Below are positions 14,858 through 22,716 of a DNA stretch of 64,000 nt, in pieces. A program made the position numbers and the translations under genes. The stretch's first letter is position 1. Each line of letters opens with the position of its first letter. The notes under the pieces were generated by a model. The model saw nothing but the letters and a program-made list of their open reading frames with translations, was not told the origin of the DNA and ran no database searches. The DNA comes from Candidatus Aphodovivens excrementavium (lineage in GTDB: Bacteria > Actinomycetota > Coriobacteriia > Coriobacteriales > Eggerthellaceae): positions 1 to 64,000 of the forward strand of contig DVKR01000034.1 in the NCBI GenBank assembly GCA_018715935.1, written 5' to 3'.

Positions 14858-14954
14858 GGAGATGGATGGAGCCTGGTGGCTCCCGCGGCCTTCAAAGCCG
14901 TTGTGAGGCGCGCAGAACGTCTCGGGTGCGTTCGATTCGCATGCATCTCCGCCA
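14858..14954 (+). tRNA. selC: tRNA-Sec (anticodon TCA), selenocysteine
   Basis: The 97-base gene has all the hallmarks of selenocysteine tRNA: a long acceptor strand GGAGATGG, a six-bp D stem (GGAGCC/GGCTCC) with a four-base loop TGGT, and an anticodon loop CTTCAAA with TCA. It also has a long variable arm (GAGGCG...CGTCTC), a T arm GTGCG-TTCGATT-CGCAT, discriminator G and an encoded CCA. The eighth acceptor pair looks mismatched (G-G). Together with selA, selB and selD nearby it shows that UGA is read as selenocysteine in this organism. Confidence 0.95.
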
Positions 14955-15007: not shown

Positions 15008-16951
15008 TTATCCCAGTTTTCGCACGTCCCCGTCTCTTACGGTTATGCCCTTTGAGTCAAGATACTCCAGCAGCGGAATTGCGTATTTTCGCGACACTCC
15101 GAGCGCGTCTTTGAGCGCCGCGGCAGTTGAAGGACCGTTTTCGCTAAGGTAGTGAACGACTATTGTCTCTGCGTCGGTTAGTGCTTTCTGGGAGTAATAC
15201 CTCTCGTTTACGCGACGCGCTTCGCCGCTATCGCTCAGGGTCGCCAGAACCTTATGGGCTTGCTGCTCGGCTAGATTAAATTGTTCCGCAAGATCCGAAA
15301 TTGCAGGGGGAGTGAGACCGGCTTCGTCGAGCACACCGCGCATGCCTTTCGCGAGCGCGAGGCCCTTTTCCTTTGCCTGAGCGCCCGCCTCGGGAAGGCA
15401 GACGACATTCCCCTCTACGGCAATGTGTCCTTCGTTTTTCAAAAGGGCAAGGACGGCTTCGAAAGAATCAGGGTCTAGTTTTGCTTTGATGCCGCGCAAC
15501 AGCTCGGCTTTCCCCATTCCCGTTGTCGCAGAGTTAAGCGTATGGAACTTCTGCAGGGCTGAGAGAAGGGAGTTTTGTAGCGAGACAAGCTTTTGCGGCC
15601 GCGCGAAATAGCGAGTCGTCCCTTTTGACGAGGGAAGCCCTTTCAGAAGCCCCCGTTCGCAGAGGTCATCTAAATACTGAAGGCACGTTGATAATCCGAT
15701 ATCGCAGCGGGAAGACAGATCGGACGCGTCAATGACATACTCGTAGGCGGTGAGCGCCTCTGAGAGCGCTTTTTGAACGTCTTGACCTTTCAACGCGGTA
15801 AGGAGGGCGGTTTCATAGGGCTTGAGAGTGGTCCGACGACGCGGATGGGATAGGAGGACAACGCCGCCTCCTATTACCTCAACAGGCGATACAGACCTCA
15901 CGATAAAGCGGTCGGTGCGCATAACGGGAAGCGGACGCTCCAGCCTAATTTGGGCAAACCCCGACTCTCCCGCACGGATGTTTTCCTTGCCGTCCATTAG
16001 CAGCAGGCGCCCCGGCACTTCTTTGGTGCCATGGGAAACGCGAACGGTAACGCCCGACTTCAGTGGGACAGTGCGCGTCTGCGCACCCACGTAGGTGAAC
16101 CACGCATCGAAGCGGTCGCTCGGATTTAGGGTATCCGGAGTTGCGAGCATCATGCCGGGTTGAACGTCTGCGGCTGTTGTTGCCGCGAGGTTTAACGCGG
16201 TTCGCGAGCCGGGGTGCGCATCGTGGGCGTCTACGCCGTAGTGCTGGATGCCCCTCACGCGCACGCGCGTGCCGCTTGGAAGCACTTCAAGCTCATCATG
16301 TAGGTGCACCGTCCCGCTCCAAAGCGTTCCCGTTACTACCGTTCCCGAGCCTTTGACGGTGAACGAGCGGTCGATAGGAAGCCTCGCTATATCGGAAAAC
16401 TGTCTTTCAGAGAAGACGAGCGATTGCGCGGCGCGGTCGATTTCGCAGACCAAGGCGTCTAGCCCTTCGCCGGTTTTTGCGGAAACCGCCACGATGGGCG
16501 ATTCGGCATAGGGCGTTGACGAAAGGAGCTCCGCCACTTCGTTTTCGATGAAGTCCCGCCAATCGGCGTCTACCAAATCACATTTCGTAAGGGCAACGAC
16601 TGCTCTTTTGATTCCGAGAAGCTCCAGCACGTGAAGGTGTTCTCTCGTTTGAGGCATTACTCCGTCGTCTGCGGCGATGCAAAGCAAGGCCAGATCGATT
16701 CCGCTTGCGCCTGCAATCATCTGCCTGACGAATTTCTCATGGCCTGGGACATCTACGATGCCAAGCATCGTTCCGCTTGGGAGGGCAAGGTGCGAAAATC
16801 CAAGCTCTATCGTAATGCCGCGTCGTTTTTCCTCTTCCAGTCTATCGGGGTCTATTCCGGTGAGGGCCAAAACGAGCGTCGACTTACCGTGGTCTATGTG
16901 CCCTGCGGTTCCCATCACCAGGGTGGGGGCATGCGGCGTTTTTGGGGTCAT
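15008..16951 (-). CDS. selB: Selenocysteine-specific elongation factor SelB
   Basis: The protein has 647 residues. The N-terminal EF-Tu-like GTPase shows GHIDHGKST (G1), [10 protein letters not shown] (G2), DVPGHEKFV (G3) and TKCD (G4). Beta-barrel domains follow, and the C-terminal half has the winged-helix repeats that bind the SECIS hairpin in the mRNA (end: [21 protein letters not shown]). It brings Sec-tRNA to the ribosome at UGA codons. The ATG overlaps the selA stop codon (ATGA), so SelA and SelB are translationally coupled. Confidence 0.95.
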
Positions 16952-18435
16952 TGCCTTACTCCGATCAAGTACTCGTTGACGGCAGATGCGATGGCGTCGA
17001 TTTCGGTGTCGTCAACAAGCGTTCTCACGTCAAACAGCAAGGCCTCTTTTTTGATTCTGCCGATAATGGGCGTCTTTCGATGCTGTATGAGAGAGCGTTC
17101 GCAATCAAGCGCGCTTCCCTTGGTAAAGCATACGCGCACCGCCCACGTTGGGATGTCATGCATTGGCAGTGCGCCTCCTCCTGCCCGAGAAACCTCTTCG
17201 ATTACTTCTACGGTGGCGTCTGTTTCGGACACCCTGCTTTTCAAGGCGAGCGCGAGCTTGTCCGCTTGCGGCCGAAGGTCTTCCTGCGCGGCGGTAAGCA
17301 TTGCGAGGGTGGGTATTTCTTTCAAGGCGCGCGCGGGGTCGAGGTAGATGCGCAGCGTTTCCTCCAATGCGGCAAGCGTCAGCTTGTCGAGGCGCAGTGC
17401 GCGTGCGAGCGGATTTGATTTCAGGCGGTCGATGAGGTCTTTTCTGCCAACGATGATGCCTGCCTGCGGTCCGCCTAGGAGTTTGTCTCCGGAAAACGAC
17501 ACCACACCGCACCCGGCTTGAAGAGCCTCGGCGACAGTCGGCTCTCCGTTCACACCAAAGCTCTTTAGAGAAACGAGCGCTCCCGAGCCAAGGTCTTCGT
17601 AGACAAGCACTTCATCGGTGCGGTTTTCGGTATGGGATGACGGCTCCTTGCCTGTCGTAACTCTTTTCTTCCTCTGTTCGTTTTCGGTGCGGGCGATAGC
17701 ACGAAGTTGCTTGACGGAAACGGATTCAGTAAAGCCCTCCATCCGATAGTTGGAGGGGTGTACTTTGAGAAGGAGCGCAGTGCTGTCTGTGATTGCGCGC
17801 TGGTAGTCGGAGGGGTGGGTTTTGTTGGTGGTGCCAACTTCCACCATAGTTGCCCCCGAAAGCTCCATTATGTCGGGAATTCGAAACGATCCGCCTATCT
17901 CCACGAGCTCCCCTCGCGAGACTACCGCTTCCTTTCCCCTCGCAAGCTCGTTGAGTACGAGCAGCACTGCTGCGGCGTTGTTGTTGACTGCCAGCGCCGC
18001 TTCGGCGCCCGTTAAAACGCACAGGAGGCGCTCGCAATGGTCGTGCCGGCTACCACGCGCCATTTCCGTAGTGTTGTACTCGAGGGTGGAGTAGCCTTTC
18101 GCCACGTCAAGTACTGCAGAAGCAGCGCGAGAGGAAAGTACGCTTCGGCCAAGATTGGTGTGGATTACCACGCCTGACGCGTTGACGACGCGCCTGAGCG
18201 ACGGGCGTGCCGTCTGCAGGGCGATACGCGTTGCGTGTACGGCTATCTCCTCTTTGCTTCTGGCGTCCTCACCCGCCAAGATAGCCTGACGCGCTTCGTC
18301 TACGGCAGTTCGCGCCGCATTAACGAGGAGAGCGCGGGGGAGAGCATCTGCGAGGTTTTGCAGATACGAAGTGCGAAGAAGCTCTTCGACCTGGGGAAGC
18401 GTCCGCAGCGCCTCTTGCAAGAAAGATGATGCCAT
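16948..18435 (-). CDS. selA: L-seryl-tRNA(Sec) selenium transferase SelA
   Basis: The protein has 495 residues. This PLP enzyme converts Ser-tRNA(Sec) to Sec-tRNA(Sec) with selenophosphate. Motifs seen are the N-terminal [16 protein letters not shown]-like [19 protein letters not shown], and the PLP-lysine region [20 protein letters not shown] 18435 is chosen because AGAAGGG lies about seven bases upstream. The longer open frame to 18639 would overlap the divergent gene's promoter region and adds an unconserved 68 residues. A roughly 35-residue insertion near residue 245 ([20 protein letters not shown]) is Lys/Glu-rich and looks like a loop. Confidence 0.94.
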
Positions 18436-18584
18436 AACAAAAACCCTTCTGTGGTCGCAGTGGTTACGTGCTAGTATAAGCGTTGTGCATCCATTCGGCT
18501 TGCCAAGCTCGTTTTCTGCCTTGCTTGGTATTCTGCGAACGGCCTTTTCGTGATGCTTCTGCACTTCTTCTTGAAAGGGCTGTG

Positions 18585-19724
18585 ATGATTTATTTAGACA
18601 ATGCTGCCACGACACTGAAAAAGCCCCCGGAGGTGGCACAGGCTATCGTGCGTGCGCTCGATAGCTTCGGCGGAGTTGGACGCGGCGTGCATGCTGCAGC
18701 GCTTGCCGCCGATGCTTCGGTCTTCGAAGCAAGGGAGGCGGTTGCCGTCTTGCTGGGCGTTCCTTCGTCTTCGCAGGTGGCCTTTACGTCGAACGCCACC
18801 GAAGCGCTGAACACTGCGCTTGCGGGTCTAACCACCCCGGGAGACCACGTGGTCACTACTGCGGCTTCCCACAATTCAATCCTCAGGCCTTTGTATCGCC
18901 TTCGCGATGAGGGTAGGATTTCTCTGTCGATAGCGCCCATTGCGCAAGACGGCTCGCTCGATTACGAGGCTTTCGAGGCGCTTTTGGAGCCTCGTGCCTC
19001 GTTGGTCGCGGTTACCCACGCGTCGAATCTTACCGGCGATGTCTATGATGTCGGAAGAATAGCTCGAATCGCTCACCGGCATCAGGCGCTTTGCGTCGTC
19101 GATGCCGCCCAGACCGCGGGAGCGTGGCCGTTGAGCATGCAGGAGCTTGGCGCAGACGTGGTCTGCTTTACCGGGCATAAGGGGATGTTTGGTCCACAGG
19201 GCACCGGTGGTCTCTGCGTGGCGAAAGGCGTTGACGTTCGCCCCCTCAAGGTGGGTGGCTCTGGAACCCATAGCTTTGATGCACGGCATCCAGAACATAT
19301 GCCCGAACGGCTGGAGGCGGGCACCTTGAACGCTCACGGCATTGCCGGATTGCATGCGGGCGTGTCCTTCGTTTTGAAAACGGGCGTTGACGCGATTTGC
19401 AGACACGACGTTTCCTTGGCGGAAGCGTTTCGTGCGGGCGTTCAATCAATCGACGGCGTAAGCGTTTTGGGAGGCGGAGCGGATGCGCACATGGGGATTG
19501 TCGCCCTCAACGTCGCGGGGATAGATTCAGGAGAACTCGCATATCGCCTGGATTCCCAGTTCGGGATCTGCACCCGTGCCGGAGCGCACTGCGCCCCGCT
19601 TATGCACAAGGCGCTGGGAACCGAGCTGCGAGGCGCGGTGCGCTTTAGCTTCTCGTACTTCAACACAAAAGAGGAAGTCGATCGGGTGATTGACGCCGTT
19701 GCGGCTGTCGCCGGCGCTCTGTAG
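18585..19724 (+). CDS. Cysteine desulfurase-like PLP enzyme (possible selenocysteine lyase)
   Basis: The protein has 379 residues and belongs to class V aminotransferase/NifS-like enzymes. The N-terminus YLDNAATTLKKPPEV, the PLP lysine in FTGHKGMFGPQG near residue 198, and the loop cysteine in CTRAGAHCAPLMHKALG near residue 335 are present. Genes of this subgroup next to selD/selA/yedF are thought to supply reduced sulfur or selenium for selenophosphate synthesis; this is inference. GAAAGGG precedes ATG 18585; GTG 18582 is an alternative start. It is divergent from selA, with 149 bases between. Confidence 0.85.
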   Translation: MIYLDNAATTLKKPPEVAQAIVRALDSFGGVGRGVHAAALAADASVFEAREAVAVLLGVPSSSQVAFTSNATEALNTALAGLTTPGDHVVTTAASHNSILRPLYRLRDEGRISLSIAPIAQDGSLDYEAFEALLEPRASLVAVTHASNLTGDVYDVGRIARIAHRHQALCVVDAAQTAGAWPLSMQELGADVVCFTGHKGMFGPQGTGGLCVAKGVDVRPLKVGGSGTHSFDARHPEHMPERLEAGTLNAHGIAGLHAGVSFVLKTGVDAICRHDVSLAEAFRAGVQSIDGVSVLGGGADAHMGIVALNVAGIDSGELAYRLDSQFGICTRAGAHCAPLMHKALGTELRGAVRFSFSYFNTKEEVDRVIDAVAAVAGAL

Positions 19725-19801: not shown

Positions 19802-20431
19802 ATGGATACGAAAATAATTGACGCATTCGGTATGCAGTGCCCTAAGCCGTTGGTCCTTGCGAAAAAGGAACTCGACGCCGGGTGCAATGACCTTGCGGTT
19901 CAAGTTGACAACGAAACGGCGGTTAAAAACCTCACGCGACTTGGCACACGCAAAGGAATGACGGTTGCCGTTGACGTCATCGAGGGAGGGTGGCTTGTGT
20001 CTTTCGGCGAGGGTGCAGCAGGCCAGTCGCAAGAGCCGTTGAGCGTGCCCTCTTCGACGGCAGGGCAGGTGTGCGGGTCTTACGGGTGCGGATACGCGGT
20101 GTTTGTGAATCACGACTGCGTTGGAGACGGCGACCGCCAACTGGGACGCAACCTCATGAAGATGGCGCTTTACACCCTATCTGAAGCCGACGACGTTCCC
20201 GCTTCGCTTCTGTTTATGAACTCAGGCGTGACGCTCATTGCCGGCCCTGGACTCGAGCAGCAGTGCGTGGACAACGTGAAGGCGCTTGAGCGGAAAGGCA
20301 CCGAGGTTCTTGTTTGCGGCACCTGCCTGAATTTCTACGGAATAGAAGAAGGCCTGCAAGTGGGCGAGGTGTCTAATATGTATGACATCCTTTCCCGCAT
20401 GCAAGAAGCGTCTAAGGTAATCACGCTGTAG
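19802..20431 (+). CDS. yedF: Selenium metabolism protein YedF (sulfurtransferase-like)
   Basis: The protein has 209 residues. The N-terminal TusA/SirA-like domain carries the Cys-Pro motif GMQCPKPL. The C-terminal DsrE-like domain has NSGVTLIAGP and VCGTCLNFYG with two further cysteines. This two-domain type is repeatedly encoded beside selD and selenium genes and is presumed to handle sulfur or selenium. The gene is followed 12 bases later by a DUF3343 gene. Confidence 0.88.
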   Translation: MDTKIIDAFGMQCPKPLVLAKKELDAGCNDLAVQVDNETAVKNLTRLGTRKGMTVAVDVIEGGWLVSFGEGAAGQSQEPLSVPSSTAGQVCGSYGCGYAVFVNHDCVGDGDRQLGRNLMKMALYTLSEADDVPASLLFMNSGVTLIAGPGLEQQCVDNVKALERKGTEVLVCGTCLNFYGIEEGLQVGEVSNMYDILSRMQEASKVITL

Positions 20432-20443
20432 CGGGCGATCGGT

Positions 20444-20728
20444 ATGCCGAACTACGTTGCCGCATTCGACTCCACGCACGTTGCCATGCAGGCAGACGCT
20501 GCCTTTCGCGGCCTCGAGCGGCAGCATTCGATTATTCCTACGCCCCGTCGGATCTCCGCCAGCTGCGGCATGGCGTTGCGGTTTGAGGCGAAGTGCAACG
20601 ACGAGGCTTACCGGCTTTTTTACGAGGCAGGCATAGACCCGACGGATTCGCATCTGTATTGCGAAGTGGCAAGCGATCAGGCTGGCGAAGGGATGCGATA
20701 CATTTTGATTCGGGGCAAGAGTTCTTAG
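20444..20728 (+). CDS. DUF3343 protein, putative sulfur/selenium carrier-like
   Basis: The protein has 94 residues. The pattern of a short chain with YVAAFDSTHVAMQADA, TPRRISASCGMALRF and a final two-thirds without known motif matches the DUF3343 family, which commonly accompanies yedF and selD. The single cysteine in SASCGMALR is conserved-looking and could carry the chalcogen. Its stop codon overlaps the stop of the convergent selD gene. Confidence 0.8.
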   Translation: MPNYVAAFDSTHVAMQADAAFRGLERQHSIIPTPRRISASCGMALRFEAKCNDEAYRLFYEAGIDPTDSHLYCEVASDQAGEGMRYILIRGKSS

Positions 20729-21810
20729 CGGTCGCTGAAATTGATGGTGCCCGGGTCTCCCTCGGAAACCTTGCCGATGTAAGCCGGCTTTCGTTGCGTA
20801 CGCCTTTCGAATTCGTCAATAAATGTGGGCGCATCGGCTTCCGAGAGGGCAACCAACAGTCCGCCTGATGTTTGCGGGTCGCACATAATTCCCATGCGGT
20901 TGTCGTATTCGGCGTCGTCAAGCCGTCCCTTTGCCACGTAGCTTTCCGCTTCGTCCATGATCGAAAAACTCCGGTTAGGGCGGCAATACGCACAGGAAAG
21001 CTCCCACACTTCATCGAAAAGGGGCAGCGCCGAGAAATCTATGACGGCGCTTGTCTTGCTTGCAGCAAGCATCTCGTGCAGGTGCCCTGCAAAGCCAAAG
21101 CCGGTAACGTCGGTGCAGGCGTGTGCGTTGCTTGCCAGCATCGCCTCTGAGGCGGCTTTGTTGAGTTCCATCATGCTCTCTATTGCCGGGCGCGCCCCTT
21201 CGTTTGAAATCGCGTCGATTTTGAGGGCGGCGCTTATTATCCCAGTGCCAAGGGGCTTCGTAAGGTAGAGGCAGTCTCCAGGCTTGGCGCCAGCGTTTTT
21301 TACGATAAGCCTGGGGTCGATGGTGCCGAAAACCGACAATCCGTATTTCGGCTCGTCGTCGTCGATGGTGTGGCCTCCGGCAATTGTTGCCCCCGCTTCG
21401 CTCACGGCGTCTGCGCCGCCTTGCAGGATGCGCGCCGCCACAGAAGATCCTAGCGAGCTGTCGAGCGCAAGCAGGTTCAATGCCACTTGAGGGGTAGCGC
21501 CCATGGCGAAAATGTCGGACAAGGCGTTTGCCGCCGCAATGCGCCCGAATTCGTAGGGGTCGTCGACGACGGGAGTGAAAAAGTCAACGGTAAGCACAAC
21601 CGCAAGATCGTCGGTCAGTTGCCACACGGCCGCATCGTCGCTGGTTTCAAAGCCGAGAAGAAGCCTGCTTTCCTCGGACGTCGCGCGCATGCGTTCTTTG
21701 GTTATGGTGGAGAGCACCGCTTCGAGGTCGCCCGGACCCCATTTCGCCGCTCAACCGCCCTTGGCTGTGAGCGTGGTGAGCTTGACTTGCTCGATCTTTG
21801 CGTCCGTCAA
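20725..21810 (-). CDS. selD: Selenophosphate synthetase SelD, itself a selenoprotein (in-frame UGA)
   Basis: The protein has 361 residues if UGA at 21751-21753 is read as selenocysteine (residue 20). The N-terminus then reads KLTTLTAKGG-Sec-AAKWGPGDLEAVL, with Sec at the catalytic position that is Cys or Sec in the family, followed by Lys23. The start is TTG 21810, eight bases after a perfect AAGGAGGTG ribosome binding site. An ordinary open frame begins only at an internal codon (21717) and would lose the active site. Later motifs are DDAAVWQL, TVDFFTPVVDDPYEFG, AGGHTIDDDEPKYG and TDVTGFGFAGHL. It makes selenophosphate from selenide and ATP. Confidence 0.93.
21724..21740 (-). promoter_or_regulatory. 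Candidate bacterial SECIS hairpin of selD
   Basis: Ten bases after the UGA, the mRNA can form a 6-bp stem GGGGUC/GACCUC (one G-U pair) with the five-base loop CGGGC. Position and size fit bacterial SECIS elements, which lie just downstream of the UGA inside the coding region and bind SelB. Confidence 0.55.
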
Positions 21811-21886
21811 CGTTTTCACCTCCTTCGATCAAGTTGAGTATAAGCAACATCCTCCTTACGGTAAACACGGCGTGCTAAATAGGGGG

Positions 21887-21915
21887 TTATCAGGCGGTAT
21901 TAAAGCGCGTATACT
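21887..21915 (+). promoter_or_regulatory. Promoter of the pyr operon
   Basis: TTATCA (21887-21892) and TATACT (21910-21915) are 17 bases apart. Transcription would start near 21922, immediately before the PyrR-type leader. Confidence 0.6.
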
Positions 21916-21922
21916 GGAGCTA

Positions 21923-22716
<794 letters not shown>

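Follow-up and report, generated by a model that had tools for sequence, protein, structure and literature searches.

Selenocysteine very probably encoded by an in-frame UGA in the selenophosphate synthetase gene selD of Candidatus Aphodovivens excrementavium

Results

A selenium gene cluster with an interrupted selD frame

The window analysed here, meaning the whole 64-kb stretch of DNA from Candidatus Aphodovivens excrementavium, carries a cluster of genes for selenium metabolism, at one end of which lies a selD frame interrupted by a UGA codon. The features considered below are the following.

14858 to 14954, + strand: selC, tRNA-Sec with anticodon UCA (RF01852, 73.7 bits over 14858-14950)
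15008 to 16951, - strand: selB, Sec elongation factor (TIGR00475, 363.7 bits, cut-off 242.25)
16948 to 18639, - strand: selA, Sec synthase, true start probably inside the ORF (TIGR00474, 557.2 bits, cut-off 267.9; model match from residue 78)
18483 to 19724, + strand: cysteine desulfurase family protein, true start probably inside the ORF (TIGR01977, 398.9 bits, cut-off 377; model match from residue 36)
19802 to 20431, + strand: YedF, selenium-metabolism protein (TIGR03527, 171.9 bits, cut-off 110)
20444 to 20728, + strand: putative Se/S carrier protein (PF11823, 59.2 bits, cut-off 25)
20725 to 21810, - strand: selD, selenide water dikinase, 361 aa, with predicted Sec at residue 20 (TIGR00476, 373 bits; PF00586 and PF02769)
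21724 to 21740, - strand: predicted bacterial SECIS (bSECIS) hairpin, 6-bp stem and 5-base loop CGGGC (-8.4 kcal/mol as an isolated hairpin; conserved at wobble level)
21751 to 21753, - strand: UGA, very probably read as selenocysteine (of 111 aligned rows, 100 have TGA and the rest TGC or TGT)
21808 to 21810, - strand: TTG start codon (two same-genus genomes, L004 and L008, likewise have TTG or GTG 19 codons ahead of the UGA)
21817 to 21825, - strand: ribosome binding site AAGGAGGTG, seen in the sequence
21837 to 21865, - strand: predicted sigma-70-like promoter TTTACC-17-TATACT (a TATANT box precedes selD in 26 of 50 relatives)

Grouped in 7 kb next to selD are tRNA-Sec, selB, selA, the cysteine desulfurase family protein, YedF and the putative Se/S carrier, and SelA, SelB and tRNA-Sec are accordingly all in the genome. 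The cysteine desulfurase family protein, which scored 316.5 bits against the model of the Sec lyase SclA, below its cut-off of 525, is a possible selenium donor. On the other side of selD, and divergent from its predicted promoter, a promoter-like pair for pyrR was seen at 21887-21915 (+), followed by a likely PyrR-binding attenuator ahead of pyrR at 21920-22030 (+), where RF00515 matched over model positions 1-115 of 115 (36.7 bits, E 0.0012, gathering score of 54 not reached) and a terminator-like hairpin (21999-22023) lies inside the match.

The selD frame that follows the UGA is open as far as a TAA at 20727-20725 (-). Read under table 11, it yields an ORF that opens only at GTG 21717-21715 (-), 31 codons shorter and without the catalytic residue, just as the sequence-only reading of this DNA had held in placing the standard start past the catalytic site; the extension from GTG 21717 to TTG 21810 indeed comprises 31 codons, the UGA included. 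The read-through product matched the SelD equivalog model TIGR00476 at 373.2 bits (cut-off 125) over model positions 1-310 of 311, a full-length match above the curated cut-off that spans both sides of the UGA, and its catalytic loop, GG-U-AAK, has the form of Sec or Cys followed by xxK.

For a genome-wide reassignment of UGA, or its reading by a non-Sec suppressor, we found no supporting point. TGA ends four of 18 hand-picked genes of the window, selA among them, and tRNA-Sec, selA and selB are all present there, which leaves this explanation with next to no probability. A scan of the window for UGA-interrupted frames returned seven candidates, selD among them; judging from where they lie, the remaining six seem to be neighbouring genes extended by chance.

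Conservation of the UGA codon

The selD alignment was built from loci of 60 related genomes (own genome included), at least 80 loci from a named genome collection and the own locus, 113 rows in total. These rows are not independent, since the own gene is present three times and several genes were fetched from both sources. The active-site codon was located by tblastn anchoring, pattern searches having missed rows. Two rows were left out, a weak paralogue (L002) and a gene cut by a contig end (L025), and 111 of 113 aligned across the site. The nearest named matches, among those listed, belong to Eggerthellaceae and Coriobacteriia.

Alignment with Sec- and Cys-containing SelD proteins, which the sequence-only reading had suggested as a check, bore it out: among the matches listed, the codon at the site was TGA in 100 rows, TGC in seven and TGT in four, with no other codon in any of the 111 aligned rows. 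The UGA thus aligns with Cys or Sec of homologues, and in the solved SelD chains 3u0o and 2yye the aligned residue is Cys. Cys-type SelD, represented by the 11 of 111 rows with TGC or TGT, belongs to the same family as the Sec-type SelD described here and differs from it in having no UGA.

Given these Cys rows, one of them from a close relative (L041), the UGA might be taken for a sequencing or assembly error, or for a Cys codon that has recently mutated. The relatives contradict this, as selD carries TGA in 25 other genomes among the 60, together with the conserved hairpin described below, and we regard such an origin as exceedingly improbable.

In some relatives (L023, L043, L054, L055, L058 and L061) SelD apparently has an N-terminal extension of about 10 codons or more, with a Cys near its beginning in contexts such as MSCGN and MDAGCN.

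The hairpin that follows the UGA

The small SECIS-like hairpin of the sequence-only reading was placed ten bases downstream of the UGA, which is exactly where the stem GGGGUC/GACCUC begins. On the - strand it consists of GGGGTC (21740-21735), the loop CGGGC (21734-21730), which begins 16 bases past the UGA, and GACCTC (21729-21724). Limits for bSECIS elements quoted in PMC13188914 are a loop of 3-9 nt, a stem of 4-16 bp, a G within the first two loop bases, a spacing of 16-37 nt and an energy of at most -7.5; compared by hand, the selD hairpin, with its spacing of 16 nt, lies within all the limits quoted there.

Conservation of the hairpin was assessed in rows where the site is followed by AAKW or SAKW, the motif of the lineage; there were 62 of these among the matches listed, 52 of them distinct. 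All but one of these 52 (L041) had TGA, and removal of one near-identical row left 50. All six stem pairs were kept in 31 of these 50 distinct relatives, five in 16 and four in three. As a null, synonymous codons were redrawn from each gene's own usage in 2000 draws, shared ancestry being ignored; against this null, the complete 6-bp stem seen in 31/50 rows compares with a mean of 1.8 and a maximum of 7, and a wobble-level motif, NNT-CCG, seen in 47/50 rows, with about 1.6 expected and a maximum of 7. GGT is used at the hairpin in 35 of the 50 rows, though it is the rarest glycine codon elsewhere in these genes (161/1493). Judged by these comparisons, the demands of the protein sequence do not by themselves account for the conservation of the selD hairpin.

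Pairing is found in 92.7% of stem cells, with changes on both sides in only three. The stem varies so little that covariation proper is weak, and the covariation score was exceeded by that of a control slid by one column. An A-C mismatch occurs in the stem of 9 of 50 rows, where Ser replaces Gly, and in many relatives the first 48 bases fold with lowest energy into a different structure. The constraint seems, from the alignment, to act on sequence and pairing together, as expected of a protein-bound hairpin. The 50 distinct genes provide a clean set for reading the selD SECIS from wobble-position conservation.

Start codon, ribosome binding site and upstream region

The TTG start proposed by the sequence-only reading, with its ribosome binding site, was recovered as AAGGAGGTG at 21825-21817 ahead of TTG 21810-21808 (-), and eighteen further codons separate it from the UGA. 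When the start in each of the 50 relatives was chosen from the in-frame candidates by the strength of the ribosome-binding match, 26 rows placed it 17 codons ahead of the UGA, four rows 19 codons ahead (the own gene, same-genus L004 and L008, and L050) and the other 20 rows between 18 and 35. A fixed column 19 codons upstream was dropped as a general start position, a start codon standing there in only 4/50 rows.

The output of a standard ORF listing is a shorter SelD that begins at GTG 21717, with the UGA as a true stop. No ribosome binding site is seen ahead of this GTG, however, and its place holds GTG or ATG in only 4/50 rows, the own gene included, whereas the codons ahead of the UGA encode a stretch conserved in relatives, such as LTxLTxKGG. 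As a SelD started there would also be without the catalytic residue, we consider termination at the UGA with a downstream start highly improbable.

The TATANT box noted upstream in 26/50 relatives compares with 2.8 expected by base shuffles. If the predicted promoter is the one used, the selD leader would be about 20 bases long. An upstream ORF in another frame, with AAGGAGG at 21857-21851, was set aside, since it overlaps this predicted promoter.

Probable Sec decoding elsewhere in the genome and in its relatives

The second, cysteine-type selD that the sequence-only reading had named as counting against its claim was not found in the genome, which is 98.95% complete in 54 contigs, and a missed copy is unlikely. 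At E <= 0.001, the sole further SelD match in the genome was a paralogue, 24% identical (E 2e-4). A formate dehydrogenase-type gene (L113, contig 33) contains one in-frame TGA in the motif V-U-H-S-P, followed by a hairpin 3' of the UGA with a perfect 6-bp stem and the 5-base loop GGUCU. This hairpin and that of selD both lie 3' of a UGA and agree in stem length and loop length; their stems differ in sequence, as do their loops (CGGGC in selD). Sec decoding in this genome appears, from these two genes, to have at least two customers.

Molybdopterin oxidoreductase PF00384 gave 23 matches, a count that includes some fragments of a single gene and seems high for a genome of 2.08 Mb; a UGA lies inside only one of them. 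A search for glycine reductase B gave no match in the genome, but none in 14 control genomes either. For ybbB, taken as a marker of the selenouridine trait, the own genome gave no match, and the cut-off was exceeded in 0/60 genomes and 1/14 control genomes.

Across the 60 genomes, a strong SelD match (233 bits or more) was found in 34, with one TGA in 26 of these. SelB was over its cut-off in all 26 genomes with TGA-selD and in 29/60 overall; the further three are G015, which has a Cys selD (L030), G019, whose selD is cut by a contig end ahead of the site, and G006, where the SelD search gave only a weak paralogue. Six genomes (G038, G044, G047, G052, G055 and G059) had a SelD match without TGA and no SelB over cut-off, and both of the loci fetched from them, L031 (G044) and L032 (G047), showed a Cys codon.

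The close relative L041, from a Coriobacteriales MAG with SelB in its genome, has the Cys codon TGT (2682-2684) in an otherwise lineage-typical SelD, and in this one sequence the hairpin keeps three of six pairs. A Sec-to-Cys change in SelD is a possible reading of this locus. The set includes two Cys versions of selD from genomes that keep SelB, G015 and that of L041, which suggests that Sec decoding as such can do without Sec in SelD.

Discussion

Here we conclude, with little room for doubt, that selD of Candidatus Aphodovivens excrementavium encodes a selenophosphate synthetase with selenocysteine as catalytic residue 20, translated from TTG 21810 with hairpin-directed Sec insertion. The earlier claim that SelD is a selenoprotein with its start upstream of the UGA is upheld by homology, by the conservation of both the codon and the hairpin, by the selB, selA and tRNA-Sec genes that share the window with selD, and by the failure to find a second selD in the genome. 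No other explanation of the UGA comes close to that of Sec at residue 20, inserted via SelB and the hairpin. Standard gene calling drops 31 selD codons, the catalytic site included, and the annotation is corrected accordingly.

In the mechanism that we propose, the selD transcript would arise from the promoter just upstream and be translated from TTG 21810. By analogy with known family biology, the hairpin at 21740-21724 would recruit SelB with Sec-tRNA at UGA 21753, where Sec would be inserted, and translation would proceed to TAA 20727-20725. SelD would make selenophosphate, which SelA would use to charge more tRNA-Sec; as selenophosphate from SelD feeds tRNA-Sec charging, SelD would thereby help to make its own Sec residue.

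That selD expression depends on selenium supply, as the sequence-only reading had also held, is a plausible extension of this scheme, because termination would occur at the UGA when Sec-tRNA is short. Speculatively, selenium shortage would then lower SelD by this route. It is a good deal more doubtful that, in this lineage, the Sec of SelD acts as a switch-like sensor of selenium, such that a level of Sec-tRNA below some threshold halts translation at codon 20, lowers SelD and turns off the Sec system as a whole. A leader of about 20 bases, as the predicted promoter implies, would leave little room for an mRNA switch, and the UGA would be the main control point.

SelD of Haemophilus influenzae has reportedly been studied as a selenoprotein. 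The Sec-type selD arrangement is well known, and it is common among Sec-using relatives. Published descriptions of Sec-type SelD go back to at least 2006 (PMC1794560, PMC4561486, PMC13188914): the tabulation in PMC1794560 gives 38 Sec-containing SelD proteins, and PMC4561486 puts Sec in 19% of SelD genes of its reference set, with a position that never varies and a bSECIS in these genes. Among open-licence papers we found no report naming a Sec SelD in Eggerthellaceae, though survey supplements may list such genes; the terms 'Coriobacter' and 'Eggerthell' are absent from the main text of PMC13188914. The Sec-type selD of Candidatus Aphodovivens excrementavium leaves the picture of selenium biology unchanged. 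With bacterial Sec-type SelD (TIGR00476, motif UxxK) it shares Sec in the N-terminal catalytic loop, a bSECIS right after the UGA and the Sec machinery, and it differs only in lineage, that of Eggerthellaceae and Coriobacteriia by the nearest named matches listed, and in the sequence of its hairpin.
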